Origin: an uncultured Lachnoclostridium sp. | GTDB taxonomy: Bacteria; Bacillota; Clostridia; Lachnospirales; Lachnospiraceae | DNA length: 64,000 nucleotides | Reading direction: 5' to 3' | Assembly (NCBI GenBank): GCA_944381625.1 | Contig: CALWLW010000002.1 | Span: 186,001-250,000 of the forward strand | Shown: in pieces, positions 46,055 through 62,912 of the stretch | How the letters are laid out: each line of letters opens with the position of its first letter | Position numbering within the stretch: the stretch's first letter is position 1 | Notes under the pieces: model-generated | Seen by the model: the letters and a program-made list of their open reading frames with translations, nothing else | Database searches by the model: none | What the model was told of the DNA's origin: nothing | Position numbers and translations under genes: made by a program

Positions 46055-46074
46055 TTCTTGCGCCGGCGCAAGAA
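46055..46074. repeat. Palindrome copy 1, upstream of int
   Basis: TTCTTGCGCCGGCGCAAGAA, a perfect 20-bp palindrome whose 14-bp core (46058-46071) recurs at 52206, 56975 and 62899. It lies 24 bp (core) before the integrase start codon. Confidence 0.9.
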
Positions 46075-46103
46075 ATTGTCGTTGGACAATGCACTATTGT
46101 ATT

Positions 46104-46409
46104 TTATTTACAAACTAAGGTTAAAATGCAAGCGAAATGGATTCGGCCAGAGGGAGCAGTTTGTGATGCGGCCCGAACCGATACTGAGACTATAGTTTTT
46201 TGAAAAATAGGGAGCTTGTTTTGAGGAACAAATCCTAGATCAATCCGATTAGCGTAGACTTGATAGGTCGAATAGCCCTTGTAATCTGCCGGGAAGATTC
46301 GGATCTGAATGTCGCGATCAAAAGGCCGCTCTCCTTTATATAATTTTTCAAGCAGTTTTTGGCGGCAACAACGTGTAACGCCGATGCACTGGATGTGATA
46401 GGTATGCAT
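46104..46409 (-). CDS. Phage protein, possibly HIRAN-like
   Basis: 101 residues. HTYHIQCIGVTRCCRQKLLEKL, RDIQIRIFPADYKGYSTYQVYAN and LGFVPQNKLPIF roughly match the order of a HIRAN domain (substrate groove and GYVP-like segment), but the match is weak. It sits between the integrase and the ImmA-like gene in the lysogeny cluster. GAGGA lies about ten bases before the ATG. Function unknown. Confidence 0.6.
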   Translation of the reverse strand: MHTYHIQCIGVTRCCRQKLLEKLYKGERPFDRDIQIRIFPADYKGYSTYQVYANRIDLGFVPQNKLPIFQKTIVSVSVRAASQTAPSGRIHFACILTLVCK

Positions 46410-46498
46410 AAATTCATATCCTCAATTGATGGCATAAATTATAAAACCGACTATTGGGAAAGGTAATGTTTCAGTTTCCGTACAGATCGGTATAGTAT

Positions 46499-46972
46499 TT
46501 AAAATTTCTCCACCACCGCAAACCTCGGTTCAAAGATCACGATGTAGTTGTCTACCTCCACACCTGTTCCGTACTTCTGCCGGTAAAGTTCCAGCGCCTC
46601 TTTCAGGTATTCCTCAGTTACGCCCAGATATTCGGCCATCTCCGTGAGGCTCTGACATCGATGTTGGTATGCACGGATGATCCCCTGTAGCCCGATCAGA
46701 CGGTTATAACCATGAAGCCTGGCATGCATTTCCTGCTTTCGGTTTTCTGGCTGACTCTGATCCAAGATGTTTCCGGTCGTGGTGTAGTGATGGCCAAGCT
46801 CTTCGGCCAAGACACATGTCCTTTCTGCCTGTGTATCGATATCTTTATTCAAAGCGATGGTTCCGTCGCAGTAAAGTCCTTTCAGGCGACCCCCCAGATC
46901 GTAAGGAATGATCACTATCTTTTCATCATGAGCATTTTGCTCCAGTATTTCACAAAGCGTCACTGGAATCAC
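46499..46972 (-). CDS. immA: ImmA/IrrE family metallopeptidase
   Basis: 157 residues with the zinc motif LAEELGHHYTT and an N-terminal region typical of phage and ICE anti-repressor proteases that cut the CI-like repressor on induction. Overlaps the repressor gene by four bases, the classical arrangement. The usual HExxH reads EELGHH here, a common variant in this family. Confidence 0.88.
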   Translation of the reverse strand: MIPVTLCEILEQNAHDEKIVIIPYDLGGRLKGLYCDGTIALNKDIDTQAERTCVLAEELGHHYTTTGNILDQSQPENRKQEMHARLHGYNRLIGLQGIIRAYQHRCQSLTEMAEYLGVTEEYLKEALELYRQKYGTGVEVDNYIVIFEPRFAVVEKF

Positions 46973-47298
46973 TCCCCCTTTTGACGGTTGCTTTTTACAA
47001 AGGCGGCAAACTCTTTGATCTTTTTAAGTTCTTCCTCTGTATATTCGTCGCCATCAAAGTGGGCGGCAAGAGCAGAAGGCTCATAATTTTGATTGGATAC
47101 TATTTCTTCTAACTCATCTGCGCTGATGCCCAAGGCAGAGCATATTTTACATACATTAACGTATCCCGCTTTTTCTGCGCCACGTTCCAAAATGGCTTTT
47201 ACAGTAGAGTAGGGAAGTCCTGAAATTTTCACAACGTCAGAAACCTTCATTTCTTTTTCTTCCATTATTTTCCTGAGTATTTCGGCCCTTTGATCCAT
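46969..47298 (-). CDS. CI-like HTH repressor
   Basis: 109 residues: XRE helix-turn-helix (MKVSDVVKISGLPYSTVKAILERGAEKAGYVNVCKICSAL) and a short acidic C-terminal tail (EYTEEELKKIKEFAAFVKSN), the ImmR-like form lacking a peptidase domain. AAGGAGG precedes the ATG. Divergent from the Cro-like gene; the shared region has three similar sites. Probably holds lysogeny until ImmA cleaves it. Confidence 0.9.
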   Translation of the reverse strand: MDQRAEILRKIMEEKEMKVSDVVKISGLPYSTVKAILERGAEKAGYVNVCKICSALGISADELEEIVSNQNYEPSALAAHFDGDEYTEEELKKIKEFAAFVKSNRQKGE

Positions 47299-47354
47299 AG
47301 AAAGTACCTCCTTGATTTGATATTACAGTATTGCACAACGAATGTAAATATAAA

Positions 47355-47436
47355 ATTGCAAAATTCTGCAAAAAAATTGTTGACAATTACGCAATCATGC
47401 AATATATTAATACTAGAAATTGCGAAATTGCGCAAT
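47355..47436. promoter_or_regulatory. Divergent operator region with three 18-bp sites and the rightward promoter
   Basis: Sites at 47355-47372, 47386-47403 and 47419-47436 fit ATTGC-N8-GCAAT (third site ATTGCG...CGCAAT, perfect in the arms; the first ends GCAAA and the second begins ATTAC). The middle site fills the spacer of a textbook promoter: TTGACA (47380-47385), 17 bp, TATATT (47403-47408), which drives the Cro-like gene. Repressor at this site would block RNA polymerase directly. Confidence 0.75.
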
Positions 47437-47452
47437 AGAAAGGAGAGTAAAG

Positions 47453-47680
47453 TTGAAACTGAATCTTAATAATTTAGAAGCAGAGATGAAACGAAAAAAT
47501 ATATCCAGAAGTGATATCGCAAATCTATTGAATCTGTCTTACAGAACGATACATTCACGATTTAACGGAGAATCAGATTGGGGATATAGCGAATGCGTAA
47601 AAGTACGGAATACATATTTTCCTGATATGACACTGGATTATTTGTTTCATACGGACGAGGAGGTGGAGAAAGAGAACTAG
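47453..47680 (+). CDS. Cro-like HTH protein
   Basis: 75 residues: KLNLNNLEAEMKRKNISRSDIANLLNLSYRTIHSRFNGESDWGYSECVKVRNTYFPDMTLDYLF, a Cro/CI-type helix-turn-helix. The TTG start has AAAGGAGAG well placed; the frame is open further upstream but those codons lie in the operator. Expected to repress the leftward lysogeny genes. It heads the rightward early transcript. Confidence 0.85.
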   Translation: MKLNLNNLEAEMKRKNISRSDIANLLNLSYRTIHSRFNGESDWGYSECVKVRNTYFPDMTLDYLFHTDEEVEKEN

Positions 47681-47944
47681 GGGAAAGGGAGTGATGAGGG
47701 TAAGAGAATATATAAAGTGGCGATTACAAAAAGCAGCTAGAGTTTCTATATCGGACGTCTTAATCAAAAAGACTGCATGAGGTTCCGTCTCATACAGCTC
47801 TTTGCCAAATTTGTTTACCCTATGTATTTTGCAGGTTTTCACCACGCTCGACGGAACCAAACGCTTCTATCAAATACCCTGTCACTTTGGCAGTTTTGGA
47901 TCTGCCACAGCCTAATTGCTGACAGGTTACAAGGAGAACTTAAC
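47681..47944. other. Gap without a convincing gene
   Basis: A 28-codon frame at 47694-47780 (MRVREYIKWRLQKAARV...) has a ribosome site too close to its ATG. The remainder has no supported gene; frames here lack ribosome sites. Confidence 0.5.
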
Positions 47945-48130
47945 ATGGTGAGCGTAGATATGGACTACGCAACGCCCTATTTTTACCGTGATAGAGAACA
48001 CGATTACGCCATGTCAGTAATCTGCCTTCCCCAGTTTACCGTGCCTTGGTGCCACGATGGGCGTCCTTATATTAAGGGAGCAGGCAAAGTCAAAAGTTTG
48101 GTCAAAAAACCAGCTCCTTCCCCCGCCTAA
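47945..48130 (+). CDS. Small phage protein, unknown
   Basis: 61 residues (MVSVDMDYATPYFYRDREHDYAM...VPWCHDGRPYIKGAGKV). The frame is open from 47777, but only the ATG at 47945 has a good site (AAGGAG, eight bases). Not recognised. No transmembrane segment. Confidence 0.5.
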   Translation: MVSVDMDYATPYFYRDREHDYAMSVICLPQFTVPWCHDGRPYIKGAGKVKSLVKKPAPSPA

Positions 48131-48210
48131 ATGGCATGAAAAAATTTTACCATTTTATGAAAAATATTACAAGAAAAATGTCGTTTCATTAAAAAGAGCA
48201 CTGGGAAGGA

Positions 48211-48267
48211 AGACGACGGCGGTTTAAAAGACACCGACATAGAACCAGGAAGGAGGTGGAGTAGATG
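48211..48267 (+). repeat. 57-bp direct repeat, copy A
   Basis: Begins AGACGACGGCGGTTTAAAAG and ends with the ribosome site and ATG of the gene at 48265. Matches 48709-48765 at 52 of 57 positions without gaps. A shorter partial copy precedes 48560. Confidence 0.85.
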
Positions 48268-48342
48268 CGCGCATCGACAATAATTATAACAGAACTGGCT
48301 TTGATATTTGGGGTTTTACTTGCAATAGCAAGTAAATTATAG
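48265..48342 (+). CDS. 25-residue hydrophobic peptide
   Basis: MRASTIIITELALIFGVLLA followed by IASKL and stop: one membrane helix. AGGAGGTGGAG just upstream, within the repeated start region. Possibly a small membrane peptide; unknown function. Confidence 0.45.
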   Translation: MRASTIIITELALIFGVLLAIASKL

Positions 48343-48373
48343 ATTTATCACAGAGAACATAAGGAGGAAATAG

Positions 48374-48559
48374 GTGAAGAGGCGCGGCTATGAGGTGTTT
48401 GAGAGGGAACTCTATCTGAAAACAGGAGGAAGTATAGCAGTCAACGTCAGGCATGATGTTTTGAGTCTGAAGATTGAGAAGATTTCCGCAGTTACAGAAG
48501 ATTTTCTAAATAAATTAACGGAAATATTGGAAGAAGACACCGTGGAGGAGGTGGAGTAG
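48374..48559 (+). CDS. Small phage protein, unknown
   Basis: 61 residues, GTG start with AAGGAGG six bases upstream. Sequence RRGYEVFERELYLKTGGSIAVNVRHDVLSLKIEKI then an acidic helical end. Soluble, not recognised. Its stop is directly followed by the ATG of the next small gene. Confidence 0.6.
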   Translation: MKRRGYEVFERELYLKTGGSIAVNVRHDVLSLKIEKISAVTEDFLNKLTEILEEDTVEEVE

Positions 48560-48658
48560 ATGCAGCAGTCAAAAGCGGGATATATTTTACAGTCAATAGC
48601 ATTGCTGATAAACTCGATTACTTTATGCATTTTAGTATGGACTCAATTCCTTGGATGA
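48560..48658 (+). CDS. 32-residue hydrophobic peptide
   Basis: MQQSKAGYILQSIALLINSI then TLCILVWTQFLG, one membrane helix. GGAGGAGGTGGAG upstream lies inside the end of the preceding gene. Similar in style to the 25-residue peptide at 48265. Unknown. Confidence 0.5.
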   Translation: MQQSKAGYILQSIALLINSITLCILVWTQFLG

Positions 48659-48708
48659 TAATCGGGAGAGCCGCAATAAAAGAAAAATTTTGTAAGAAAA
48701 GGAAAGGG

Positions 48709-48765
48709 AGACGACGGCGGTTTAAAAGGCACTGGCATGGAACCAGGAAGGAGGTGGAGCAGATG
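48709..48765 (+). repeat. 57-bp direct repeat, copy B
   Basis: Second copy of the translation-start segment seen at 48211-48267; ends with the ATG of the gene at 48763. Confidence 0.85.
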
Positions 48766-49008
48766 AAGAGAAGAAAAAATATTACTGTTGAAAAAGCCAC
48801 AGAAAAAGAACTCCTTCGCTGGCATATGGAGCAAATGGCGAAGGAGTCCAACGGTATGACATCTAGCGAATGTGCTTCAGCTATGGCAGAGTTGTATAGC
48901 TCATTTCAAAATAGTCACACCTTCAGAATTTTGGCCTTTACGATATTCTTTCAATTCACTGTAAACATTTTTGTACTTTTCATAAAGCTGTTCAGGAGTA
49001 AGGTCTGA
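48763..49008 (+). CDS. Small phage protein, C-terminal half overlapped by an opposite gene
   Basis: 81 residues. The first half (MKRRKNITVEKATEKELLRW, then HMEQMAKESNGMTSSECASA) looks like a normal soluble protein; the second half (hydrophobic, FRILAFTIFFQFTVNIFVLF) is antisense to the gene at 48901-49062 and may be read only because no stop occurs. AGGAGGTGGAG lies upstream. The original 3' end may have been lost by recombination. Confidence 0.5.
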   Translation: MKRRKNITVEKATEKELLRWHMEQMAKESNGMTSSECASAMAELYSSFQNSHTFRILAFTIFFQFTVNIFVLFIKLFRSKV

Positions 49009-49062
49009 AAGATTTTGTTTACTGAGATACAGAATAGTAAGGTCGTGTATTACTTCGTTCAA
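48901..49062 (-). CDS. Small minus-strand phage protein
   Basis: 53 residues, TTG start with AAGGAGG nine bases upstream. MNEVIHDLTILYLSKQNLSD, then LTPEQLYEKYKNVYSELKEY and RKGQNSEGVTILK: amphipathic helices with balanced charge, as in real small phage proteins. It runs against the surrounding rightward genes and overlaps the 3' end of the gene at 48763 by 108 bp. Confidence 0.6.
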   Translation of the reverse strand: MNEVIHDLTILYLSKQNLSDLTPEQLYEKYKNVYSELKEYRKGQNSEGVTILK

Positions 49063-49303
49063 ATAAGTATTTCCTCCTTTTTGTCGTACTCGGCTGCTGC
49101 AACAGCCTGTATTCAGATTATAAGATGAAGAGAGAAGGAAAGCAATGGGAGCGCAAGAAGAAAGAATCTACTGCGAGATCCTGCAAGAAGCATAGGGGGA
49201 AGTGATATGAAAGGCGCCGATATGGAGCCGAGAAGCTGACGTTGCATTAGGACAAACCATATTTACATAACATGTACAAAGACAAGAAGGGGAGGGGAGA
49301 ACC
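49063..49303. other. Gap with only tiny reading frames
   Basis: Contains a 26-codon basic frame (49125-49205) and a degenerate echo of the 57-bp repeat near 49206-49240 (AAAGGCGCCGATATGGAGCC). No gene can be supported. Confidence 0.5.
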
Positions 49304-49468
49304 ATGTCGAAACGGATTAAGCCGGAGGACTACACCTGTACCGTAGAATTTACTCCAGGATGGGAAAAAAGATTCACCCAGGCGTTTGTGGATCTGTATT
49401 ATCAGCGCCTGGAGCGAGGGGCTGAAAGCCTGGTGAATAGAGACTCAAACAAGAAAGCATCCGCATAG
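49304..49468 (+). CDS. Small phage protein, unknown
   Basis: 54 residues (MSKRIKPEDYTCTVEFTPGW, then EKRFTQAFVDLYYQRLERGA and a polar end) with a strong GGGGAGGGGAG just upstream. Not recognised; soluble. Confidence 0.65.
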   Translation: MSKRIKPEDYTCTVEFTPGWEKRFTQAFVDLYYQRLERGAESLVNRDSNKKASA

Positions 49469-49490
49469 CGCGTGGGAATGGAGGGTAAGT

Positions 49491-49643
49491 ATGAGCGAAG
49501 AGTTGAAAAAGGATATCGAGAAATGCATTGAGCGCATGAAGGAAGAGGGCTATAGCGGCGCACGAGGCGCAGCGTTTGCAAAAGGGTACCTTCACGGATG
49601 GACGGAACTCGAAGAACTGCTTGGGATTATAGCAGGAGAGTGA
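49491..49643 (+). CDS. Small phage protein, unknown
   Basis: 50 residues (MSEELKKDIEKCIERMKEEG, then YSGARGAAFAKGYLHGWTEL), GGAGGG upstream. Helical, acidic. Followed by the tRNA-like elements. Confidence 0.65.
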   Translation: MSEELKKDIEKCIERMKEEGYSGARGAAFAKGYLHGWTELEELLGIIAGE

Positions 49644-49712
49644 GACGCCAGTAAGCGTAGGTCAGAAAACGAGGGCGGGGCGACTGCATAGGGCGCCCCA
49701 CATAAAAACTAT

Positions 49713-49794
49713 GGAGCGGGAGGCCCGACGGCGGGCACAGTAAGGTCCTTATAAAGCACTCGTTGACATACCGGTTCGACTCCGGCTCGCTCCA
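49713..49794 (+). tRNA. tRNA-like element 1, degenerate
   Basis: Acceptor arms GGAGCGG (49713-49719) and TCGCTCC (49787-49793) pair over 7 bp with one G-T pair; T arm CCGG-TTCGACT-CCGG is good. The D arm (GCCC/GGGC) lacks the usual A14, and the anticodon arm cannot be drawn with a 7-nt loop: the middle reads GTAAG-GTC-CTTAT, a stem with a 3-nt loop. Length 82 nt. Not a normal decoding tRNA. Confidence 0.5.
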
Positions 49795-49865
49795 CTGGGG
49801 ATCGACACTTCCCAAAGAAAAAACTGAATATGGAAAAGCCCTCGCCTCTGTCTCGGCGAGGGTGA

Positions 49866-49940
49866 GGGTCCGTAGCTCAGATGGCAGAGCCTGCCGGCAG
49901 ATGGCCGGCCCGGACGCAGGTTCGATTCCTGCCGGACCCA
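49866..49940 (+). tRNA. tRNA-like element 2, abnormal anticodon loop
   Basis: Perfect 7-bp acceptor (GGGTCCG / CGGACCC), 4-bp D stem with an 8-nt loop holding GG, perfect 5-bp T stem and TTCGATT loop. The anticodon stem GCCGG/CCGGC closes loop CAGATGG, which lacks the universal T at position 33 and has two bases instead of one after the D stem. If GAT is the anticodon it would read Ile codons, but function in translation is doubtful. Confidence 0.65.
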
Positions 49941-49969
49941 TTCTCGCGAGAAGAAAGTGAAAATTGAAT

Positions 49970-50209
49970 ATGGCAAAAAAGATGATAGTAGAAACCAGCG
50001 AGGGAGTGGTAAAGGAGTATGACCTCGATCAGGTATCCGGGATCGGCTTCCGGACGGGAGAAGACCTGGCTTATCGGAACGAGGAGCTGATCGATGATCA
50101 TATGTACCTGGTCGTATATCCGCACGACAACAGAAGGACGGATATCTACGACACATACTGTACGTCGATTGAATTTGCAGAAGGCAAGGAGGAGAAAAAT
50201 GGGATTTAA
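49970..50209 (+). CDS. Phage protein, unknown
   Basis: 79 residues (AKKMIVETSEGVVKEYDLDQ, VSGIGFRTGEDLAYRNEELI), acidic, likely beta-rich. The ATG at 49970 is chosen over a TTG six bases upstream. Overlaps the next gene by 11 bp. Not recognised. Confidence 0.65.
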   Translation: MAKKMIVETSEGVVKEYDLDQVSGIGFRTGEDLAYRNEELIDDHMYLVVYPHDNRRTDIYDTYCTSIEFAEGKEEKNGI

Positions 50210-51245: not shown

Positions 51246-51255
51246 ATGCTCTTCT
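51222..51255 (+). terminator. Strong terminator closing the early operon
   Basis: Perfect 14-bp arms AGAAGAGCATTCAG (51222-51235) and CTGAATGCTCTTCT (51242-51255), loop 6 nt, spanning the stop codon at 51243-51245. No long T run. Confidence 0.65.
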
Positions 51256-51325
51256 GGGACAAGCCCGCATATCAAAAATGTATGTAATTATCATACCATA
51301 GCGGGCCCCAAAAAGCAAGAGAATC

Positions 51326-51346: not shown

Positions 51347-51386
51347 GAACTTGATTTAGCAATTAAACTTGGAAGGACATGAGCTT

Positions 51387-52232
51387 ATGCACATCAAGAA
51401 TGTATGGAGATACAAAGGGGTCATGGAGGTGGAGCGGGTCAACTCCGGCCGGTATGGGAAGAAAGGGAGCCCGGCCCCCAGGAGATTACCAACACCGGAG
51501 GAGGTGGCTCGGACGAATGAAAAGAACTGTATCAAAAAACTGCGACGGAAGATCCAGGCAAACTTTGATCCGGGGGATCTGTTTTTGACCTTGACCTACA
51601 AAAAGGAGATAAGGCCGGACGCCAAGGAAGCCCGCCGGATCCTGAAAAATTATTTGGAGCGCCTGCGGCGGAAATGGAAGAAGGCCGGGGCGCCCCTGAA
51701 GTACATCATCGTGACGGAGTATGAGAACAAATCCATCCACCACCACCTGATCCTCAACGACCTCCCGGACGGATCCGGGGCAAAGGCGGCAAACCAGTGC
51801 TGGAAGGGTAACGGCGGAACGCATACGGAGTATCTCTATGAGGACGGCCACTACGAAGATCTGGCCGCGTATCTGGTAAAAGAAACGAAAAAAACCTTCC
51901 GGAAACCGGGAAGCCCATCGAAAGCCCGGTATTCCTGCAGCCGGAACCTAATAGATCCAAAGCCTAAAACGACCATTTTAAAGAGCGACCGCTGGCCGGA
52001 GGACCCAAGGGTACCGAAAGGATACTACCTGGACAAGCAGAGCCTGGTCAACGGAGTCAATAAAATGGGCTACAGGTATCAATATTACCGCCTGGTGAGC
52101 CTGAAGCCGAAAAACCATGCTCACAAAGTAAAGACAAAGGCGAGAACGGATACCGGAAACCGGGAGCAGGAAAGAAAAAGAAAGCGGAGCGTAGCAAAAC
52201 CGGATTTGCGCCGGCGCAAGAAAAAGAGGTGA
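51387..52232 (+). CDS. HUH-type replication initiator (REP_ORF2-G2P-like)
   Basis: 281 residues. Motif I FLTLTYKKE, motif II IHHHLILND (HUH) and motif III with Tyr in DLAAYLVKETKKT define a rolling-circle-type nicking enzyme. A basic C-terminal tail (RKRKRS...RRRKKKR). Start at 51387, nine bases after GGAAGGA. Such Rep proteins are known from small phages and from clostridial prophages; here it may start phage replication. The palindrome copy 2 lies inside the last codons. Confidence 0.82.
   Translation: MHIKNVWRYKGVMEVERVNSGRYGKKGSPAPRRLPTPEEVARTNEKNCIKKLRRKIQANFDPGDLFLTLTYKKEIRPDAKEARRILKNYLERLRRKWKKAGAPLKYIIVTEYENKSIHHHLILNDLPDGSGAKAANQCWKGNGGTHTEYLYEDGHYEDLAAYLVKETKKTFRKPGSPSKARYSCSRNLIDPKPKTTILKSDRWPEDPRVPKGYYLDKQSLVNGVNKMGYRYQYYRLVSLKPKNHAHKVKTKARTDTGNREQERKRKRSVAKPDLRRRKKKR
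52206..52219. repeat. Palindrome copy 2, end of rep
   Basis: TTGCGCCGGCGCAA, within the rep 3' end (encoding LRRRK) and 17 bp before the start of the RNase H-like gene. Confidence 0.9.
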
Positions 52233-52236
52233 TGAG

Positions 52237-52674
52237 ATGGTAAACATGTACCTGGAAACCGCGACGCGGGGCATCCGGCGGGGAACCGGTTGGTACGGAT
52301 ACGTCCTGGAGTGCTTTGACAGCAAAGGGAATGTACATACGGTCCAGGAATTCCGGAAAGAGGAGAACGTAACCCCGAACCAGCTGATCATGCTGTGTTT
52401 CTGTGCGGCTCTGAACCGGATGCGGAAGGCGAGCGAGATCATGGTATACACCGACCAGCTCTACCTCCGGGGAAACTATACCTCGCACCTGCCCATGTGG
52501 CAGGGAAATGGCTGGAAGACCGCAAGAGGGGAGACCATTGCGAACGTGGAACTCTGGAAGCGCGTCGCGGAACTGACCCGATGGCACCAGATCTGCTTTG
52601 CCAGGGACTATCAGCACAGCTACAAAAATTGGATGACGGCGGAACTGCAGAAACGCAGCAGCCGGACCGCCTGA
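52237..52674 (+). CDS. RNase H-like protein
   Basis: 145 residues. WYGYVLECFDSKGNVH, EIMVYTDQLYLRGN (the TD of the second acidic motif) and MWQGNGWKTARGETIANVELWKRV (WxxNGWK...NxELWxR) follow the RNase HI pattern. Likely removes RNA from hybrids in phage replication, though not every acidic residue can be assigned. Four bases after rep. Confidence 0.72.
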   Translation: MVNMYLETATRGIRRGTGWYGYVLECFDSKGNVHTVQEFRKEENVTPNQLIMLCFCAALNRMRKASEIMVYTDQLYLRGNYTSHLPMWQGNGWKTARGETIANVELWKRVAELTRWHQICFARDYQHSYKNWMTAELQKRSSRTA

Positions 52675-53208: not shown

Positions 53209-53801
53209 TGGCGTTTAAGGGGCTCACAAAGGATCTGGTGGCGTCCCTGGGGATCGGACACAAGAGGCTGGAACTGGGAGTCACCTATCGGGAAACTGGC
53301 TGTAAGACAGCCCGCAAGGGCTGGCACTGCACAGAAAATCCCTTTGAGTGCCTGGGATTTTTTCCTCTGGGCCATGGGAACAGGCATTTTCGGGTAGAGG
53401 CCGGGGGTATGATCGACGAGGACGGCGGATGCCAGATCGCCTGCACGGAGATCATACTGGTAGAGGAACTGGATCATAAAAAGCTGGCAGGCTATGGCAT
53501 GATGTACATGGTACAACATCCTCTCCGGAAAGACTGGGAGCAGGACAGGCAGCATCTGAGGGTGGCAGAAGGCGAGGCGGCCGCGGAGCAGGCCGGGGAC
53601 ATTGCGATTGCCAGAGGGCCGTATCCAAGGGTCAGAGGCCCGGAAGGAGCGATCCTCGGCCTGATCCTGGAACCGGAACCGGGTCAGATCGAGGCGGCGA
53701 AGCTGTTTGTCGTATCCGGGGAGCAGGCAAAGATCTGGTGGACCGTGGACGAGGAAAGGAATATACAGGAGGCGGAAAGAAATGAAGAGAAAGCTGGTTG
53801 A
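53208..53801 (+). CDS. DUF7666-like protein
   Basis: 197 residues: KGLTKDLVASLGIGHKRLEL, CKTARKGWHCTENPFECLGF (the GFHxC..P.. type motif), then RHFRVEAGG and TEIILVEEL. Common beside phage terminase or PcfJ genes; function unknown. Either GTG 53205 or ATG 53208 can start; GGAGGTG is upstream. Overlaps the PcfJ gene by 20 bp. Confidence 0.7.
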   Translation: MAFKGLTKDLVASLGIGHKRLELGVTYRETGCKTARKGWHCTENPFECLGFFPLGHGNRHFRVEAGGMIDEDGGCQIACTEIILVEELDHKKLAGYGMMYMVQHPLRKDWEQDRQHLRVAEGEAAAEQAGDIAIARGPYPRVRGPEGAILGLILEPEPGQIEAAKLFVVSGEQAKIWWTVDEERNIQEAERNEEKAG

Positions 53802-55905
53802 AAGAACGGAGCCGAAGGCGCCGGTCGTAGAACTGGAGCATCAGGTTATCACCGTGCAGGAAGTGGAAGGCATCCTGATCCTGAATATATTCGCCAGAGG
53901 GATCCTGAGGGCCAGATATGCTATGAATACGGAGAATTATGAGTATGAAGCCCTTGAAAACGGGATCTGGAAACAGAAAAAATTTGAATTTTTATGGACA
54001 GAGAGAAGAAGCTCTTACTGGGGATGCATGAGGGAAAAGGATGCGCTGTTTGACACCGCGCGGGACAAGGATCTTATCGTAGAGATGATAAAGGACAAAT
54101 ACTGGAACTCAGACGCCATCGGCCTGATCGAGCACCGGGAATGGGAATACAACGCGAATACGCGGGAGGCGAAAGAAATGAGACGTCTCGGCCGCGTCCG
54201 GGAAACTATGGATAAGATACCGCCGCTTCCGGAAGATCTCCGAGACTGGATCCTGGATCGGACAGGGCGGCCTGGATATCTGTTTTTCGACCAGGAGGAG
54301 AAAGAATGGGCATGCACCTCCTGCAAGGGCAGAACGCCGGAAAAAGAACTGCGCCGGGAAGACGGCGGGAAAGCCAGGCATGGTGATACAGCAGCCTGCC
54401 CGCACTGCGGCCGGAAAGCCTCCGTCGTGCGGCGGACAACGCGGAAAAGAATGCCGCTGAATTTTTGCCTGATCCAGCCGGTAGACGAGGAAATGGGAGT
54501 CGCCAGGCACTTTGATGCAGAAGTGATTTGGGGAGCAGGCGGAGAAGGCGTGGCGATCTCCGAGGCAATAAGGGTACTGCTGTATAAACCGAAAAGTAAA
54601 AAATATCAAAAATGGAACTGCGACATTTATTACAACCAATACACCAGGGACATGTCCTGGGGCACAGTAAAAAATTCGGGAAAAGAGTATTTTGACAACC
54701 GCGGGAACTCCGCAAACAGAAGGACGTACCATGCATACTTGTATGACGGAGGCATCCAGGAGGCCCTGAAAGATACAGCCTATGAGGGGTGGACGAGAAT
54801 TTTTAAACAGATGGCGGCAGAAAACAGACACCAAGTACATTACAGCGCTCTGATGGCTTGCGGAGAAACGAAGATGCCAGCGCTGATAGAACTGCTGTAT
54901 AAGGGGAGGTTTTACCGGCTTCTGAAAGAAGAGGCGGAAAAAATAGGCATCATGTTTGGAGGATACAACGGGGTGCTGAGGATTAAAGGAAACAGCATCG
55001 AAGAGGTATTTAAGATCCGTGATCGCCAGAAGATCAACCGGATCCGTGACATGGACGGTGGGAGCAATGCCGTGCTCTGGATGCAATGGTCAGACACCAC
55101 CGGGCAGAAGATCGGTCAGGAAACGCTGGAATGGCTGGGGAAAGAAGGGATTGTCCCGGAAGATATAAAAGGCATAGGGCCATACGTGGGCATCCAGCAG
55201 ATACGGAATTACCTGATCCGCCAGCAGGCTGAGAGCTATCCAGGGCTTAAAATAAAAGCCGTGCTCTCGCAATGGATAGATTACCTGGGAATGGCTAAAA
55301 AGCTGGGGAAGCATATGGATGACGCGATGGTGTACCGGCCGCGGGAGCTGAGACGCCGGCATGATGAGGCCGTGATGGAGCTGGAAGCGCGGAAGGCGGA
55401 AATCACAGCGAACGAATACGCAGAACGCTTCCCAGGCGTGGAGGATGTTATGGCAGAGATCCGGGAGAAATACGAATACACCTCAGACCAGTATATCATC
55501 ATCGTCCCGCGCCGCTGTATGGACATCGTGCTGGAAGGCCGGATGCTCCATCACTGCGCTGGGGCTTGCGACCGGTACTTTGACCGGATCCGCCAGAGGG
55601 AGACCTATATCTGCTTCCTGCGCCGGGCGGAAGAACCGGAGAAACCGTATTATACCATCGAGGTAGAGCCGGGCGGAACGATCCGCCAGCACCGGGGCGA
55701 GTACGATGAGGAACCGGGGATCGAAAAAATCCGGCCTTTCTTGCGGGAGTGGCAGAAGGTAATAAAAAAACGGCTCACGGAGCAGGATCATCACTATGCG
55801 AAAATCAGCGCCGTAAAGCGTGAGGAAAACATCCGAGAGCTGGAAGCGAAAAACAATACCAGAGTCCTGAAGGGGCTCATGGAAGACTTTATGGAGGCGA
55901 TATAA
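53782..55905 (+). CDS. pcfJ: PcfJ-domain protein
   Basis: 707 residues. A zinc ribbon (WACTSCKGRTPEK ... CPHCGRKASVV, about 180-225) and a C-terminal PcfJ domain (IIIVPRRCMDIVLEGRMLHH, YFDRIRQRETYICFLRRAEE, GGTIRQHRGEYDEEPG; about 575-680). PcfJ is known from conjugative plasmid pCF10 but its biochemical role is unclear; in phages it is found with PcfK and replication genes. AGGAGG lies upstream of ATG 53782, although the frame is open earlier. Confidence 0.85.
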   Translation: MKRKLVERTEPKAPVVELEHQVITVQEVEGILILNIFARGILRARYAMNTENYEYEALENGIWKQKKFEFLWTERRSSYWGCMREKDALFDTARDKDLIVEMIKDKYWNSDAIGLIEHREWEYNANTREAKEMRRLGRVRETMDKIPPLPEDLRDWILDRTGRPGYLFFDQEEKEWACTSCKGRTPEKELRREDGGKARHGDTAACPHCGRKASVVRRTTRKRMPLNFCLIQPVDEEMGVARHFDAEVIWGAGGEGVAISEAIRVLLYKPKSKKYQKWNCDIYYNQYTRDMSWGTVKNSGKEYFDNRGNSANRRTYHAYLYDGGIQEALKDTAYEGWTRIFKQMAAENRHQVHYSALMACGETKMPALIELLYKGRFYRLLKEEAEKIGIMFGGYNGVLRIKGNSIEEVFKIRDRQKINRIRDMDGGSNAVLWMQWSDTTGQKIGQETLEWLGKEGIVPEDIKGIGPYVGIQQIRNYLIRQQAESYPGLKIKAVLSQWIDYLGMAKKLGKHMDDAMVYRPRELRRRHDEAVMELEARKAEITANEYAERFPGVEDVMAEIREKYEYTSDQYIIIVPRRCMDIVLEGRMLHHCAGACDRYFDRIRQRETYICFLRRAEEPEKPYYTIEVEPGGTIRQHRGEYDEEPGIEKIRPFLREWQKVIKKRLTEQDHHYAKISAVKREENIRELEAKNNTRVLKGLMEDFMEAI

Positions 55906-57516
55906 ATGGCAGAGGAAATGGTAAAAGTGGGTACATACAGGTATTTTAAAGCAGCGATGGACCAGGAAGTCCGGAACGTGACACAGGGATTTGTCCGGAT
56001 GGGATATCTCCTTAAAGTGGCCAGGGACACGGATATCCTGGCAGAGTCGGGTTATAAGACCGTCGCAGAATTTGCCGCCGCAGAGTACGGGATGAACGAG
56101 ACCTATGTGTCCCGTTTTATCGGGATCAATGACAGGTACGCTGAAGGCGGGTATTCCGACCGCCTGCAGGAGAAATACCAGGGCTACGGGATGTCACTCC
56201 TGGCAGAAATGCTGACGCTGCCGGAGAGCATCGCGGATGCCGTCCCGCAGGGGATCACCCGGAAAGAGATCAGGGAGATCAAGAAAGAGTATGAGGCAGA
56301 GCAGAAGATCACACCCATGGAGGTATTGATGGAAGGCCAGCCGGAAGGTGCGGAGGACCTGGGAGTACCAGCCCTGGCCATGCGGAAGTATTTTTACGAG
56401 CACCGGGAGAAGTTCGCGGAGCTGGCACCGGTGATCGCCAGGGAAGAATATTCCGACAGCTCCGTGGAGCGGCTGATGGATGTCCTGGCCCCCTCCGGGG
56501 TAGCAGTGCTGATGGCCAGGGTACCGGGCATAGGCCGGCTGATGGTCAGCATTCGGGGCAAGGATCAGGACGTGGAGGTGCAAAACGTCCGGAGCCTGGA
56601 AAAAGAAAGCTGTACCTGGGTAGAGCTTTTATACGGCCTGAAGCTGATCTGCAAAGGAGCAGATCTGTCAGAACCGGAGCGTGCTTGGGAGCAGATCTAT
56701 GGAGAGACATACAGAGCAGAAGAGCCGCAGAAACCGGATCAGAATGCAGGAAAACCGGAACGGGAGCAGGCAAAACCGGATCAGGACGAGAAAGAACAGA
56801 ATGAAGCCACCCGGGAGCAGGAGGCAGAAAGGAAAGAAGATGACAAAGGAGAAGAGCTTGCAGACGGTCCTGAAGGAGCTGGAGCAGAATCGCATAAGGA
56901 AACATCAGAAGGAGAAAGAGTGCCTGAAAAAACCGCAGAGGAGCCGGCGGAAGAGGAAGCCGAGAAACCGGGAAATGCGCCGGCGCAAGAATCAGCGGGA
57001 GACGAAGTAAATACTGAGTCAAACTCCGATCAGAAAACTCTGTACGACCAGTGCAAAGAGTGCCGCTTCCACTATCCGGAGAGCCCGGCAAAAGAGCTGG
57101 CGTACGGAGCCGTATGCGATGACTGCGATGACGCAGAGCATTTCCAGCCAATCCCGGAAGATCTGTCCAGGGAGGAGAAGGAAAACGCGGAGCAGGCATC
57201 AGAGGAGCCGAAGGAAGAGAAATCCGGGGAGCAGGCGACGGAAGAACCGGAGACGCAGATCCCCGGCCAGGACAGCATCATGAACCACCCGGAATATCTT
57301 CCGGAAGGCATGGATCCGGAGCCGACGCAGGCGGCCGTGGACGGTGAACCGGTACATGCCCAGGTAGAGCCGACGGAAGAACAGGTAAAAGAAGAGGCCC
57401 TTGCGCACCTGAGTATGATCCAGGGAAACATCGGAATTGAGAATTACCGAAAGGCCAGGGAGCAGGGAGAGCATCTGCTGGATGTCCTGAAATGCCTGGA
57501 AGGATACAGGCCATGA
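55906..57516 (+). CDS. DUF3102/ParB-like phage protein with acidic linker
   Basis: 536 residues. The N-terminal half (FVRMGYLLKVARDTDILAES, TVAEFAAAEYGMNETYVSRF, GYSDRLQEKYQGYGMSLLAE) has helix-turn-helix character as in DUF3102/ParB-like proteins. Residues 270-390 are a Glu/Lys/Gln-rich disordered linker; a CxxC...CxxC zinc motif follows (DQCKECRFHY ... VCDDCDDAEHF), then another acidic stretch and a C-terminal helix. Function unknown; DNA partition or replication is possible. Contains palindrome copy 3. Confidence 0.65.
   Translation: MAEEMVKVGTYRYFKAAMDQEVRNVTQGFVRMGYLLKVARDTDILAESGYKTVAEFAAAEYGMNETYVSRFIGINDRYAEGGYSDRLQEKYQGYGMSLLAEMLTLPESIADAVPQGITRKEIREIKKEYEAEQKITPMEVLMEGQPEGAEDLGVPALAMRKYFYEHREKFAELAPVIAREEYSDSSVERLMDVLAPSGVAVLMARVPGIGRLMVSIRGKDQDVEVQNVRSLEKESCTWVELLYGLKLICKGADLSEPERAWEQIYGETYRAEEPQKPDQNAGKPEREQAKPDQDEKEQNEATREQEAERKEDDKGEELADGPEGAGAESHKETSEGERVPEKTAEEPAEEEAEKPGNAPAQESAGDEVNTESNSDQKTLYDQCKECRFHYPESPAKELAYGAVCDDCDDAEHFQPIPEDLSREEKENAEQASEEPKEEKSGEQATEEPETQIPGQDSIMNHPEYLPEGMDPEPTQAAVDGEPVHAQVEPTEEQVKEEALAHLSMIQGNIGIENYRKAREQGEHLLDVLKCLEGYRP
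56975..56988. repeat. Palindrome copy 3, inside the DUF3102-like gene
   Basis: ATGCGCCGGCGCAA, one mismatch from the 14-bp core; encodes APAQ in the acidic linker. Confidence 0.8.
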
Positions 57517-58840: not shown

Positions 58841-59187
58841 TGAGAAGAAAATTATCAAAAGCAGAGCGGGAGCAGGTGTTAAAAAAATGTGATGGCCACT
58901 GCGCGTATTGCGGATGCTCCCTGGAGCATGAGCACATGCAGGTGGATCACGTGATTCCTTTGCGCAAAGGAGGAGCAGACGAGCTGGAAAATATGCTTCC
59001 GGCATGCAAAAGCTGTAACTGGTACAAGTCCACCATGACGGTAGATCAGTTCCGAGCTTACCTGGAGCAGATCCCGGCAAGGCTTATGAGAGACAGCATC
59101 CCATACCAGGTAGGGATGAGATTCGGGATCATAAAGCAGGGAGAGCCGCAGATAAAATTCTATTTTGAAAACCATAAGGAGGAATGA
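58840..59187 (+). CDS. HNH endonuclease
   Basis: 115 residues: CDGHCAYCGCSLEHEHMQVDHVIPLRKGG and NMLPACKSCNWYKSTMT, the complete HNH with flanking CxxC pairs. Placed before the terminase genes, as in many phages with cos or pac packaging that need an HNH, but 3.7 kb upstream. ATG overlaps the preceding TGA. Confidence 0.88.
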   Translation: MRRKLSKAEREQVLKKCDGHCAYCGCSLEHEHMQVDHVIPLRKGGADELENMLPACKSCNWYKSTMTVDQFRAYLEQIPARLMRDSIPYQVGMRFGIIKQGEPQIKFYFENHKEE

Positions 59188-59188
59188 C

Positions 59189-59572
59189 ATGTTAGAAAAG
59201 ATTCTGGAAGAGATAGAACAGAGAATAAGTCATTACAGAGAAAATGCCACAGCAGAATACGTTGATGTTTGCGCCGGACTGCGGGAAGCGGATGAAATCA
59301 TCCGCCAACACATGAATGATGAACTGAACAAAAACCTGGAAGAACTCAAGCAATACAGGGCCATCGGAACCGTGGACGAGTGCCGGGAAGCGGCAGAGCG
59401 GAGGAAAGCAAAGAGACCGGACTACGAGGGTGACGGAGAAGCAGATGGATATCCTGTATACGATACCTGGATATGCCCGCACTGCGGAGAACATTATGAG
59501 ATCGAATACGAAGAATACGCATGCTGCCCGAAGTGCGGGCAAGAAATAGACTGGAACGAAGTGAGTAATTAG
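59189..59572 (+). CDS. Phage protein with EKILEEIE head and zinc-ribbon tail
   Basis: 127 residues. N-terminal MLEKILEEIEQRISHYRENA and EIIRQHMNDELNKNLEEL, then a zinc ribbon CPHCGEHYEIEYEEYACCPKCG. The head is shared with the proteins at 59595 and 60332. AAGGAGG lies six bases upstream. Unknown. Confidence 0.65.
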   Translation: MLEKILEEIEQRISHYRENATAEYVDVCAGLREADEIIRQHMNDELNKNLEELKQYRAIGTVDECREAAERRKAKRPDYEGDGEADGYPVYDTWICPHCGEHYEIEYEEYACCPKCGQEIDWNEVSN

Positions 59573-59594
59573 TGAGGAAAGCAGGAGGCTCAAT

Positions 59595-59924
59595 ATGGTA
59601 GAAAAGATCTTAGAAGAAATACACGAAAAAAGCTTTTATGTGGACATGGAATTAGCGGTGAATTATGAGGATGTGGAGGAAATCGTCCGAAAGCGTATGA
59701 ATGACGGCTGGATCCCAGTGAGCGAACGGCTGCCGGAAGGGAATGCGATAAATCCTGTAACCTGCGATGCTTATGTATATCCTGTAACCGTGGATTTTGG
59801 TGGGGTTACTGATGTACGCTACTATTCGTTTTACAAGGGGCACTGGTATAATCAAAGTCCAAAAATAATGGACGATTTAGTAACTGCATGGCGTGAAAGG
59901 CCAGACCCGTACAGGAAAAAATGA
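59595..59924 (+). CDS. DUF551-type phage protein
   Basis: 109 residues: the same head (MVEKILEEIHEKSFYVDMEL, EIVRKRMNDG) fused to a DUF551 unit (WIPVSERLPEGNAINPVTCD ... VTAWRERPDPYRKK). Unknown function; frequent in phages. Confidence 0.72.
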   Translation: MVEKILEEIHEKSFYVDMELAVNYEDVEEIVRKRMNDGWIPVSERLPEGNAINPVTCDAYVYPVTVDFGGVTDVRYYSFYKGHWYNQSPKIMDDLVTAWRERPDPYRKK

Positions 59925-59944
59925 ATAGTTAGAGGAGGTTTTTA

Positions 59945-60268
59945 ATGCAAGTTTGGATCACGAAATATGCGTTATCGCAGGGAATTTTTAAATCAGATGT
60001 CGAGGATGAAGGGAAAGGAACAGTAAAAGAAGTAGCTTGCCCTTTTTCGCTTTACTATCACGGAGAAGGAAAGGAATGGCACCGAACAAAAGAATCTGCA
60101 ATCGCCAAGGCTGAAGAAATGCGCAGGGAGAAAATCGCCGACTTGAAAAAGCAGATTGAAAAATTGGAGGGGATGGAATTTGATGATGAGAAACCAAATC
60201 CCTCAAAAAAAGAAAAAGCTCACAAGAAGATATACTATGAAGATTTCGCGGGCGGGCGGTACATATAA
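59945..60268 (+). CDS. Phage protein, unknown
   Basis: 107 residues (MQVWITKYALSQGIFKSDVE, YYHGEGKEWHRTKESAIAKA then a coiled-coil). GAGGAGG upstream. Not recognised. Confidence 0.65.
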   Translation: MQVWITKYALSQGIFKSDVEDEGKGTVKEVACPFSLYYHGEGKEWHRTKESAIAKAEEMRREKIADLKKQIEKLEGMEFDDEKPNPSKKEKAHKKIYYEDFAGGRYI

Positions 60269-60331
60269 GAAAGAAAATTGAATGAATAGTTAGTGGAGGT
60301 AGGAATGACAGAGAAAGTGGAGGGTTGAAAG

Positions 60332-60988
60332 ATGGGATTCGAGAAGATTCTGGAAGAGATAGAAAAGGAATTTGATAGACGTATTGATACACAACTAAAA
60401 ATCATGGCTGGTTTGAGTGATGACGTGTATAGATACGGGTACGGGAAGAGCCTTGAGGCTTACCAACAAGGAAAGATTCTGGTTGAAGATATCATCCGCA
60501 AGCACATGAATGACGGCTGGATCCCGGTGGAGGAACGCTTGCCGGGAACTCAAAAAGAAGCTATTGAAAATATAAAAGAGTATATCCGTAAATGCAATTA
60601 TACCTGGTCAGTAAAAAGTATTTTTAACGAATATATAAAACATTTGAACGGGGCGTATGTATCCTATACTGCACGGGATGTTATTGAGAATTGCCATAGG
60701 TCGCTAGAAAAATTATCTGCCAAAGCTCTGGAAGAAATCCAGCAGTACCGTGAAGCCGGAACTATAGAAAAGTTCAGAAAAGCGAAAGACTATAAATGTC
60801 AACATGATAGTATGTTTATGATAGACATTGATTTTGCAAAGTATTTATTCTGCAAAAACATATTAGTTTTCAAATTATTTGATAATGGGGATGAACGTAT
60901 TGTTGCTGACCTTGATGATATGATTGAGCATTCTGCACGCGGTGGATTGTTTGGAGTCGAAAAAGATGATTTAGATGACATTATTTAA
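60332..60988 (+). CDS. Phage protein with EKILEEIE/DUF551-like head
   Basis: 218 residues. GFEKILEEIEKEFDRRIDTQ and EDIIRKHMNDGWIPVEERLP repeat the head of the 59595 protein, but the DUF551 unit breaks off after ERLPG and a different helical domain follows (AIENIKEYIRKCNYTWSVKS ... DLDDMIEHSARGGLFGVEKD). Suggests module exchange. Confidence 0.62.
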   Translation: MGFEKILEEIEKEFDRRIDTQLKIMAGLSDDVYRYGYGKSLEAYQQGKILVEDIIRKHMNDGWIPVEERLPGTQKEAIENIKEYIRKCNYTWSVKSIFNEYIKHLNGAYVSYTARDVIENCHRSLEKLSAKALEEIQQYREAGTIEKFRKAKDYKCQHDSMFMIDIDFAKYLFCKNILVFKLFDNGDERIVADLDDMIEHSARGGLFGVEKDDLDDII

Positions 60989-61036
60989 GATGGCTGGAGT
61001 ATGGGACTAACCTGGGAGTGGAAAGGAAAGCATGGA

Positions 61037-61504
61037 ATGAGTTTTTTTATATTTACTCTTTTGGACGAAGTGGAGAAGGAAATAAAAGAGGATGCAGACA
61101 AAAACGTATGGATCGAACACTGTATCAACATCAAAGAATTATGCGATTATACGGTTTCCTGCTCATACGGCGATATGGTCCTGATCATTTGCATGATAAA
61201 AGACTATCTGAGGACAATCGCCGAAAAAGAGGGCCCCACATGGGACTACTACAGGACGCGTTTTACAAAGATGGCGGATCGCCTATCTGCGCAAATTGAA
61301 TATGACTATGACGAGGCGATGAAGAGGTGTAAAAAGAAAATGGCCGCGAAGGAAAGCAACGATGATGTGGGTGAAGACGCCATGGTATTGGCCGTGAAGT
61401 ATAATGGAAAAACCAAGAAAAAAGGAAACAAACAAAATGCCGAAAGTGACGGCACCGGAGGCGAAGAAGAACAGGCCGAAGCTGAGACTCCGCCAGAAGA
61501 ATGA
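61037..61504 (+). CDS. Phage protein, unknown
   Basis: 155 residues from ATG 61037 (MSFFIFTLLDEVEKEIKEDA, YGDMVLIICMIKDYLRTIAE) with a charged low-complexity C-terminus (TKKKGNKQN ... EEEQAEAETPPEE). GGAAAGGAAAG upstream supports this start over an ATG at 61001. Confidence 0.58.
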   Translation: MSFFIFTLLDEVEKEIKEDADKNVWIEHCINIKELCDYTVSCSYGDMVLIICMIKDYLRTIAEKEGPTWDYYRTRFTKMADRLSAQIEYDYDEAMKRCKKKMAAKESNDDVGEDAMVLAVKYNGKTKKKGNKQNAESDGTGGEEEQAEAETPPEE

Positions 61505-61537
61505 AAGGGGGAAGAACATAAATTAAAGGAAAATGAA

Positions 61538-61825
61538 ATGACAGAAGATACACCCAAAACATTGCTTGAGAAGATTTTCAAGAAGATCAAGGATCCTGTT
61601 CTTCCGTGCGCAAACTGCCTATGCCATTATTGCACATGCAATGTCGAGGCACCGTGTGATCGAGTCAGCGAGGAGGAGGCGAGAGCGGCGACGCCATGCT
61701 TTGACTGCGACGAGTGTAAATGGTTTGCGGGAGAATCAATGTATCCATCTCGTCGCAAAGAGGATTGCGACAACTTTATCTTATCTGATTATGAGGCGAA
61801 GAGGAATAGATTAAAGATAGATTAA
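61538..61825 (+). CDS. Cys-rich phage protein
   Basis: 95 residues with CANCLCHYCTCNVEAPC and CFDCDECKW...CDNF: two metal-binding clusters. Acidic. AAAGGAAAA upstream of ATG. Unknown. Confidence 0.65.
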   Translation: MTEDTPKTLLEKIFKKIKDPVLPCANCLCHYCTCNVEAPCDRVSEEEARAATPCFDCDECKWFAGESMYPSRRKEDCDNFILSDYEAKRNRLKID

Positions 61826-61841
61826 GAGGAAGGGAAGAAAA

Positions 61842-62117
61842 ATGAAAAGAGATTCAGAAGGAAAGTATCGAATGAAAATCATACAGGAGAAGCATTACAA
61901 CAAAGCCGAACAGAAATTGCTCGACCAATATGTAGCAAACACACCTGAGACTTATAAAAATACCTATATAAACATGCAGAGAGGATACCTGAATTGCCTT
62001 ATGTATGCAATAGAATTATCCCGGCTTATAGAAGCGGTTAGAGAAGCATCATATTCAACGAATGATTTTGCTGTGGCGATGGGCGAATTGGGAAGCATTT
62101 TAAAGAAAATTCAGTAA
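61842..62117 (+). CDS. Phage protein, unknown, helical
   Basis: 91 residues (QEKHYNKAEQKLLDQYVANT, IELSRLIEAVREASYSTNDF). GAGGAAGGGAAG upstream. Not recognised. Confidence 0.65.
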   Translation: MKRDSEGKYRMKIIQEKHYNKAEQKLLDQYVANTPETYKNTYINMQRGYLNCLMYAIELSRLIEAVREASYSTNDFAVAMGELGSILKKIQ

Positions 62118-62199
62118 CACAAAAAGGCAGGAGGGCGGATATTGATGATTCCTATGCGGCCAGCATGCCGGACATAAAATAAACGAGGAGGGGACAGCA

Positions 62200-62784
62200 A
62201 TGGAGAAAAGACAGAAAGAGTGCTGCGGGAGGTGCCAGTACATCGTAGCCGGCGAAGTGCCGGGAGCTCCTGAATGGATGTGCAATAACGGCGAGAGTGA
62301 GAGATTTGAGAGCAGCGTGGATCGTGGGAGCAGGTGTGATCATTACGTACATAAGCCCACGGAGACGGAAATAAAAAAAGAATATCTGCAAAGCTATCGC
62401 ACTCATGTGCGCCGGATCCGTCGGATCGAGGCGGAGCTGGAAGAGATTCGGGCGATGCGCACCGCTATATCCGTCAACAATGACGGTATGCCGCATGGAT
62501 CAGCACAGACAGATCTGTCCTCCTACGCGGCACGGTTGGACGAGCTGGAGAGAGCTTTAATCCAGGAGAGATATCGGAGAGTGGTGGCCTATAAAGATAT
62601 CACTGATCAGATCAAAAAACTGAAAAGCGAGCATGAGCAGGATGTATTGTTTTATCGTTATATCAGAGGGATGGACTGGTGGGAAATAGCAGAAAAGATG
62701 GAGTATTCTGAGAGGCAAATCTTCCGTCTACATGGAAAAGGATTAAAAAATATAAAAATAAAAGATGTCAGTGAATGTCAGTAA
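62200..62784 (+). CDS. DUF1492 / sigma-like late transcription regulator
   Basis: 194 residues. An N-terminal Cys cluster (CCGRCQYIVAG...CDHYV) is fused to a DUF1492-type part: YLQSYRTHVRRIRRIEAELE, SVNNDGMPHGSAQTDLSSYA and a C-terminal HTH like sigma region 4 (YIRGMDWWEIAEKMEYSERQ, IFRLHGKGLKNI). Such proteins (ArpU/RinA-like) activate late phage genes and usually sit just before terS, as here. AGGAGGGG upstream. Confidence 0.82.
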   Translation: MEKRQKECCGRCQYIVAGEVPGAPEWMCNNGESERFESSVDRGSRCDHYVHKPTETEIKKEYLQSYRTHVRRIRRIEAELEEIRAMRTAISVNNDGMPHGSAQTDLSSYAARLDELERALIQERYRRVVAYKDITDQIKKLKSEHEQDVLFYRYIRGMDWWEIAEKMEYSERQIFRLHGKGLKNIKIKDVSECQ

Positions 62785-62898
62785 GATCTGTGGTAATATG
62801 GTATCATCGAGAAAAGGATAAAGACAAAGCAACAGGAAGGGAGAACCGTAAAAGGAGGATCTTCCTTTTTGCTTGCAGGGAGCAGGCCAAAGGAATAT

Positions 62899-62912
62899 TT
62901 GCGCCGGCGCAA
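62899..62912. repeat. Palindrome copy 4, upstream of terS
   Basis: TTGCGCCGGCGCAA, 14 bp before the terS start codon. Confidence 0.9.

Follow-up and report, generated by a model that had tools for sequence, protein, structure and literature searches.

ParB and Noc proteins bind the palindromes parS and NBS (Noc-binding sites) with two-fold symmetry, touching DNA with helices α4, α6, and α8, and their specificity is switched by a few residues, Arg173 of ParB going, at one base, with G and a Gln of Noc with A (PMC7383237). KorB of plasmid RK2 is a CTPase clamp that works with KorA, and its OB operators serve long-range silencing (PMC11790492). The stoperators of cluster A mycobacteriophages are asymmetric sites of the immunity repressor and lie mostly in one orientation to transcription (PMC6550527). 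In cluster O mycobacteriophages, 34 dyad repeats of 17 bp, whose arms are invariant, lie both in genes and between them, mostly off promoters; these phages also encode ParB-domain proteins (gp90) (PMC4351075). Here, we analyzed a 14-bp palindrome, TTGCGCCGGCGCAA, that recurs in a prophage of an uncultured Lachnoclostridium sp., together with g21, a prophage gene whose product is its likely binder. The stretch analyzed, of 64,000 nucleotides (G000:C2:186001-250000), is called the window below.

The initial annotation of the window had described four copies of the palindrome, and our search confirmed them. Three copies are exact and one, ATGCGCCGGCGCAA, has one mismatch (Table 1); copy 1 is the core of a perfect 20-bp palindrome, TTCTTGCGCCGGCGCAAGAA. 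The spacing of copies 1, 2, and 4 to the starts of the int, RNase H, and terS genes was also as described. When up to two mismatches were allowed, five matches were found in the window compared with 0.40 expected, and none of 100 shuffled sequences reached five. The count in the whole genome (3.43 Mb), which the annotation had proposed, gave six exact copies, all in the prophage (C2 232058-272671, a span of 41 kb), three of them past the window end. No exact copy was found outside the prophage, in agreement with the earlier statement that no full copy was seen in 44 kb of host DNA, and the reversed control pattern was absent genome-wide. A chance origin of the set was ruled out by the shuffles, by the prophage-only exact copies, and by the palindrome counts given below. 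At the position of copy 3, an exact palindrome is present in G014, the nearest relative, from the same genus (L138/L159). This relative and the GTDB matches assign the host to the Lachnospiraceae.

Within the genus, 7 of 17 genomes had exact TTGCGCCGGCGCAA and none had the reversed control pattern; in the family sample, the figures were 16 and 3 of 397 genomes, respectively, so that a few single matches in the family may be due to chance. Our own genome is included in both samples. In the relatives, sites recurred before amidase genes, before integrases, and inside g21. The positional conservation on which the annotation had made its proposal depend was observed for the serine integrase and RNase H sites, and also for portal and g21-internal sites. 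At the serine integrase, RNase H, and portal genes, the orthologous position was kept while the type of palindrome differed between phages. Four sister palindromes, TTGC[G/A][C/A]CG[G/T][C/T]GCAA, exist in Lachnospiraceae phages and are called GC, AC, GA, and AA types after bases 5 and 6.

Single-protein scans with the whole g21 protein and the HUH protein returned only 0 and 1 relatives, respectively, and alignments were therefore used to search for relatives. Eighty IMG/VR loci were collected through the g21 domain, and GTDB loci were added afterwards; INPHARED gave one g21 match and the plasmid collection none. The commonest 14-bp palindrome in the 80 IMG/VR loci, TTGCGCCGGCGCAA (GC), occurred in 28 loci with 45 copies, followed by TTGCACCGGTGCAA (AC; 25 loci, 65 copies) and TTGCGACGTCGCAA (GA; 15 loci, 21 copies). 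The AA type had two copies, and the other 12 combinations of TTGCnnCGnnGCAA had none. At least one site was present in 65 of the 80 loci, and 60 of these 65 held a single type. With the GTDB loci included, 62 of 70 multi-site loci were of pure type, compared with 31.6 (maximum, 41) when types were shuffled. Among 210 palindromes with the base composition of the GC type, the GC type itself had 48 copies in 135 loci, and every other had at most one. Half-and-half sites numbered 3 in 138 g21 loci, against 229 palindromic ones. A scan for the AA type yielded, among the 118 new loci listed, one g21 locus, L270, on the same contig as L248.

We then compared site type with the g21 DNA-binding domain in 115 non-redundant protein-site sets. 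These sets exclude ten duplicate loci, the ties L245, L248, and L404, domains that were identical or short, and loci in which no exact site occurs; from the first residue-type table, eight duplicates were left out. Site type followed two residues, R119 and R123 of the window g21, which correspond to family-profile columns 113 and 117. Residue 123 was Arg in 41 of 42 GC sets, 13 of 13 GA sets, and 0 of 60 AC sets, and Arg versus not-Arg at this residue matched base 5 in 114 of 115 sets. As a single-column predictor of base 5, residue 123 made 1.5 leave-one-out errors, and the next best column made 11. Residue 119 was Val in 13 of 13 GA sets, 0 of 42 GC sets, and 3 of 60 AC sets. Arg123 goes with G at base 5, and Gln, Glu, Ala, Thr, and others go with A; Arg or Lys at 119 goes with C at base 6, and Val119 goes with A only alongside Arg123.

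The association was also observed in restricted and later samples. When only sites outside the g21 open reading frame (ORF) were counted, 110 fitted the residue rule and 4 did not (61 loci). In two pairs of close relatives, compared with columns 110-120 hidden, an exchange at one of these residues accompanied the change of type: Arg/Gln at 123 with GC/AC sites in L176/L177, and Arg/Val at 119 with GC/GA sites in L224/L238, which are 82% identical outside the helix. Among the later GTDB loci, the residue 123 rule agreed with the majority type in 45 of 46 site-bearing loci, the miss, L404, being a tie. The agreement was 44 of 45 without L376, whose contig had already been used as G014, and all 39 loci agreed after duplicate removal. 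Two further elements of our own genome, L256 (G000:C8:1-20000) and L257 (G000:C23:1-19000), had GA sites and a Val119/Arg123 g21, as predicted beforehand, and MT835488 (Arg119, Ala123) had four AC sites. In loci without an exact site, near sites fitted the rule, with L254 as the exception. Since site type covaries with its DNA-binding domain, g21 is the likely binder, and the palindrome is very probably a two-fold symmetric binding site of g21 whose half-site is read by residues 119 and 123. Both residues would lie on one helix, residue 123 setting base 5 and residue 119 helping to set base 6; which base each one touches is inferred from the covariation. The annotation had proposed an operator of one phage regulator. 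A single phage-encoded protein is the most likely reader in view of the covariation; the promoter-operator form of that proposal is disfavored by weak promoter signals.

The N-terminal domain of g21 is predicted to fold like the DNA-binding domains of ParB and Noc, and its best structure matches were the DNA-binding domains of Noc, ParB, Spo0J, and KorB. No Pfam family matched g21 at E ≤ 0.01, and hence there was no match to the ParB CTPase domain (ParB_N). We regard g21 as a phage protein with a predicted ParB/Noc-like DNA-binding domain and no recognizable ParB CTPase domain. Like ParB and Noc, g21 has a predicted helical domain of ParB type, with which the palindrome covaries, and Arg/Gln at residue 123 with G/A mirrors Arg173 of ParB and the Gln of Noc (PMC7383237). 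Unlike in ParB and Noc, ParB_N is missing from the Pfam matches, the sites are phage-wide and in-gene, and the code would be carried by other residues of a late helix, probably α8 judged by position only. g21 resembles KorB in having a ParB-type domain and several operators on a mobile element (PMC11790492); unlike KorB, it has no ParB_N match that would point to a CTPase sliding clamp.

In total, 227 GC, AC, and GA sites were found in 110 of 138 g21 loci. This site-bearing share may be inflated, as the loci were found with an alignment built from site-bearing loci, which leaves the link between type and residues unaffected. The g21 ORF, with 8% of the bases, held 102 of the 227 sites (93 loci), often near residue 280, in a linker-like stretch C-terminal to the modeled domains. 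Of these in-gene sites, 99 share one frame and encode AP[AV]Q- or ATSQ-like peptides. The exact palindrome underlies 97 of 114 such peptides and a variant differing by one or two bases the other 17, so that the DNA is kept beyond what the peptide alone would explain. The annotation had taken copy 3, inside a gene, as a sign of an additional architectural role. Such a copy is no side feature, since a site lies within this gene, that of the presumed binder, in 93 of 110 site-bearing loci; an architectural role may nonetheless exist.

Many of the other sites lie at gene junctions. A ribosome site and start codon followed within 45 nt for 41 of the 227 sites, compared with 7% of random positions. 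Contexts were listed for 95 sites from loci below 57% GC, of which 2 were half-and-half and not palindromic; the start-associated subset, at most 32 nt from the start, comprised 56 sites, one of them half-and-half. The downstream genes code for tyrosine and serine integrases, endolysins, portal, minor head, and tape measure proteins, terS, anti-repressor, RNase H, and excisionase-like proteins, 20 of 41 downstream-gene groups being annotated. Compared with 443 control starts, the 56 start-associated sites had a lower promoter-like signal (6.84 versus 7.36, p 0.003); for the 52 of these sites preceded by an ORF, the median distance from its stop codon was 21 nt. Proximity to a ribosome site need not mean translational control, since free space is often limited to the gap that separates a stop codon from the following ribosome site. 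The sites, which one phage protein would serve, are dispersed, type-pure, and weak in promoter signals. Terminator-like hairpins before the site were conspicuous to the eye in several contexts but were rejected as a general feature (4 of 56 by crude count versus 3.4% of control starts).

Several results weigh against the binding model or limit its scope. At up to two mismatches, the genome was matched 22 times by the palindrome and 27 times by the reversed control, so that specificity is limited to exact copies. No exact site was found in 28 of 138 g21 loci. The predicted domain had no Foldseek match in the PDB at E ≤ 0.001, and a sequence-profile search of the PDB returned no ParB relative. 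Base 6 was predicted by residue 119 with 3 errors and by other columns with 2.5 to 3. Three Val119/Glu123 loci with AC sites contradict a simple two-residue rule, L219 has GC sites yet Gln123, and L254 has Lys123 with GA-like near sites; single sites of a minority type occur in L102, L188, and L400. On the tree, five changes at base 5 and five at base 6 were counted, and the well-supported branches left one and two independent pairs, respectively, concordant in nearly all random pairings and too few for a significant sign test. Sites also occur without g21. In the first 50 of 120 loci found with the pattern (L022 was skipped because its record was already represented by another stretch), g21 was present in 6 of 14 records with at least two GC sites and not shown in the other 8, and in 4 of 36 single-site records, the rest being fragments, chance matches, or unexplained. 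Of the eight g21-less multi-site records, G437 opens with an apparent g21 end that itself contains a site, the surroundings of G459 and G446 are unrelated, and five remain (G439, G442, G443, G456, and G460). In G437 (L450), the ORF from 726, downstream of the g21-like end, encodes a protein of 528 aa that has a ParB_N stretch and, at its C terminus, a DUF3850/ASCH domain. As a separate observation, G459 (L435, L436), a 44.6-kb viral record in which no g21 was found, holds ten TTGCGCCGGCGCAA copies, several flanked by CCC and GG.

Taken together, a ParB-derived protein without a CTPase clamp and its dispersed non-promoter sites may form a genome-wide nucleoprotein network that governs phage genes or DNA by means other than transcription initiation, and whole site sets would have changed on several occasions together with one or two residues of the protein; we give this picture a little less than an even chance. 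Most phages would have a site set of one type, usually with one site in g21 and others at junctions or in other genes. As to the effect of binding, we tentatively prefer silencing at the level of elongation over ParB-like organization and replication, since many sites lie within transcription units before operon-internal genes and in g21 itself. Bound to non-promoter sites, g21 would obstruct passing transcription or locally silence the downstream int, terS, lysis, and head genes during activity of the early module. Bound to the site in its own gene, it might restrict how strongly it is expressed; KorB operators and mycobacteriophage stoperators would be comparable cases. Like stoperators, the sites are many, dispersed, and off promoters, belong to one (here inferred) phage protein, and diverge together with it (PMC6550527). 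Unlike stoperators, they are perfect palindromes, and the covariation points to an early-module protein, away from the helix-turn-helix (HTH) genes at 46969-47680, whereas stoperators belong to the immunity repressor.

Instead of regulating genes, g21 could organize, condense, segregate, or mark phage DNA, with the sites as parS-like nucleation points. We consider this somewhat unlikely, although the ParB/Noc-like predicted fold, the dispersal of the sites, and promoter signals below those of controls are in its favor. Further support comes from the phage record G456, in which two GC sites but no g21 were found. At the place expected for g21, flanked by its RNase H-like and HNH-like genes, G456 encodes a ParB whose ParB_N match is weak and below the cut-off, and it also has ParA. 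The C-terminal and middle stretches of this ParB are similar to some g21-family proteins. The shared slot and stretches suggest that g21 and ParB may exchange for each other. On the other hand, no palindromic site lies near the parAB of G456, g21 itself has no ParB_N or other Pfam domain, the prophage is integrated, and no ParA was noticed beside g21 in the prophage gene list, which was read by eye without a systematic search.

A role of g21 as a replication organizer appears unlikely. In phage lambda, the origin iteron array lies within the O gene, which encodes a DNA-binding protein, and the in-gene site of g21 could likewise be part of an origin, the other copies being secondary. Consistent with this, no other site recurs as often as the in-gene one, it lies past the modeled domains in the gene of a presumed DNA-binding protein, and g21 has neighbors that include the HUH initiator, RNase H-like, and PcfJ-like genes. 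In 135 loci, relatives of PcfJ-like genes were near g21 in 125, g18 in 108, HUH Rep in 105, and RNase H in 78. Unlike the lambda array, g21 contains one or two palindromes besides the dispersed copies; a replication role does not predict copies in lysis, head, and integration genes, and the HUH protein is already a candidate initiator.

A classical promoter operator of a prophage repressor is very unlikely. Several sites do precede integrase, anti-repressor, and excisionase-like genes, but the promoter-like signals are below those of control starts, the sites closely follow upstream stop codons, and the covarying protein is encoded in the early module and not beside the HTH genes. Translational control by an RNA hairpin upstream of the ribosome site, raised in the annotation, can hardly be upheld. 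The listed start-associated sites do lie directly upstream of a ribosome site, and the G-C to A-T change at positions 5/10 preserves an RNA pair. By contrast, the symmetric change at positions 6/9 (C-G to A-T) falls within the would-be loop, where two intervening bases prevent pairing in RNA; changes are thus not confined to RNA-pairable positions, on which ground the hairpin was rejected, and DNA symmetry explains the covariation. In-gene copies and a type that tracks residues of the DNA-binding domain also contradict it. A mobile palindromic repeat, or a homology boundary for module exchange with no dedicated binder, would fit sites at gene junctions of mosaic phages but is scarcely credible given a four-type code tied to one protein, type purity per locus, and different types at the same position.

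With these results, an unannotated phage protein family, whose window member belongs to phrog_15077, gains a probable target and a recognition code. The literature searched contained no description of the g21 family or its palindromic site, and none of the three typed palindromes was present in it. The natural site-protein specificity classes, in which a genome's site set has changed in concert with its probable DNA reader, offer material on the rewiring of such networks. The findings may also bear on palindromic repeats that are so far unexplained in other phages, among them those of cluster O, which differ from the g21 sites in sequence and in having more copies, and for which the available portion of the report identifies no binder or code (PMC4351075).

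Table 1. Palindromic sites and associated genes; positions are on the window scale unless a locus is named
Feature	Position	Strand	Remarks
Large serine integrase	44498..46033	-	Downstream of copy 1; PF00239, PF07508, PF13408
Site copy 1, GC type	46058..46071	.	24 nt upstream of serine integrase start
HUH-type replication initiator	51387..52232	+	Start of early module conserved with g21
Site copy 2, GC type	52206..52219	.	3' end of HUH Rep gene; 17 nt upstream of RNase H-like gene
RNase H-like gene	52237..52674	+	Downstream of copy 2
PcfJ-like gene	53782..55905	+	Directly upstream of g21
g21, likely site-binding protein	55906..57516	+	phrog_15077; no Pfam match
g21 part for ParB/Noc-like DNA-binding domain (residues 20-138)	55963..56319	+	Predicted fold
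g21 codons 119-123 (R119...R123)	56260..56274	+	Residues tracking bases 6 and 5
Site copy 3, one mismatch	56975..56988	.	Within linker-coding part of g21
Site copy 4, GC type	62899..62912	.	14 nt upstream of terS
Terminase small subunit (terS)	62927..63826	+	Downstream of copy 4; PF03592
Site copy 5	67912		17 nt before gene at 67943
Site copy 6	83586		Within tyrosine recombinase gene g61
Site copy 7	86658		21 nt before amidase
ParA-ParB pair in related phage module	L443 10246-12910		

The prophage lies between a gene end at window 44479 and a Peptidase_M23-matching fragment at C2 276258. We read the two flanking pieces as halves of one interrupted gene; the N-terminal half had no Pfam match. 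The prophage codes for a serine integrase, HUH Rep, RNase H, PcfJ, terminase, contractile tail sheath, holin, and amidase, and a tRNA-Ile (GAT) was predicted within it at window 49866-49940. Another palindrome, TTGCAACGTTGCAA, was abundant in contigs in which no g21 was found: 15 copies in three stretches (L269, L291, L335) of the 17.6-kb IMG/VR contig 3300021413_000005, and 8 and 9 in the 3300049985 contigs L286 and L304. Some copies lie two bases before ATG, and TTGCAACGTTGCAA seems to form a repeat system of its own. Near the right end of the prophage, a second integrase, of the tyrosine type (C2 273535-274437; window scale, 87535-88437), possibly belongs to another element at the same place. 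Outside the window, the tail-fiber-like genes g59, g60, and g65 surround the tyrosine recombinase g61 (C2 266500-272200; window scale, 80500-86200). They show inverted similarity (g59 versus g60, 592 bp, 88%), and the region looks like a tail-fiber inversion cassette.

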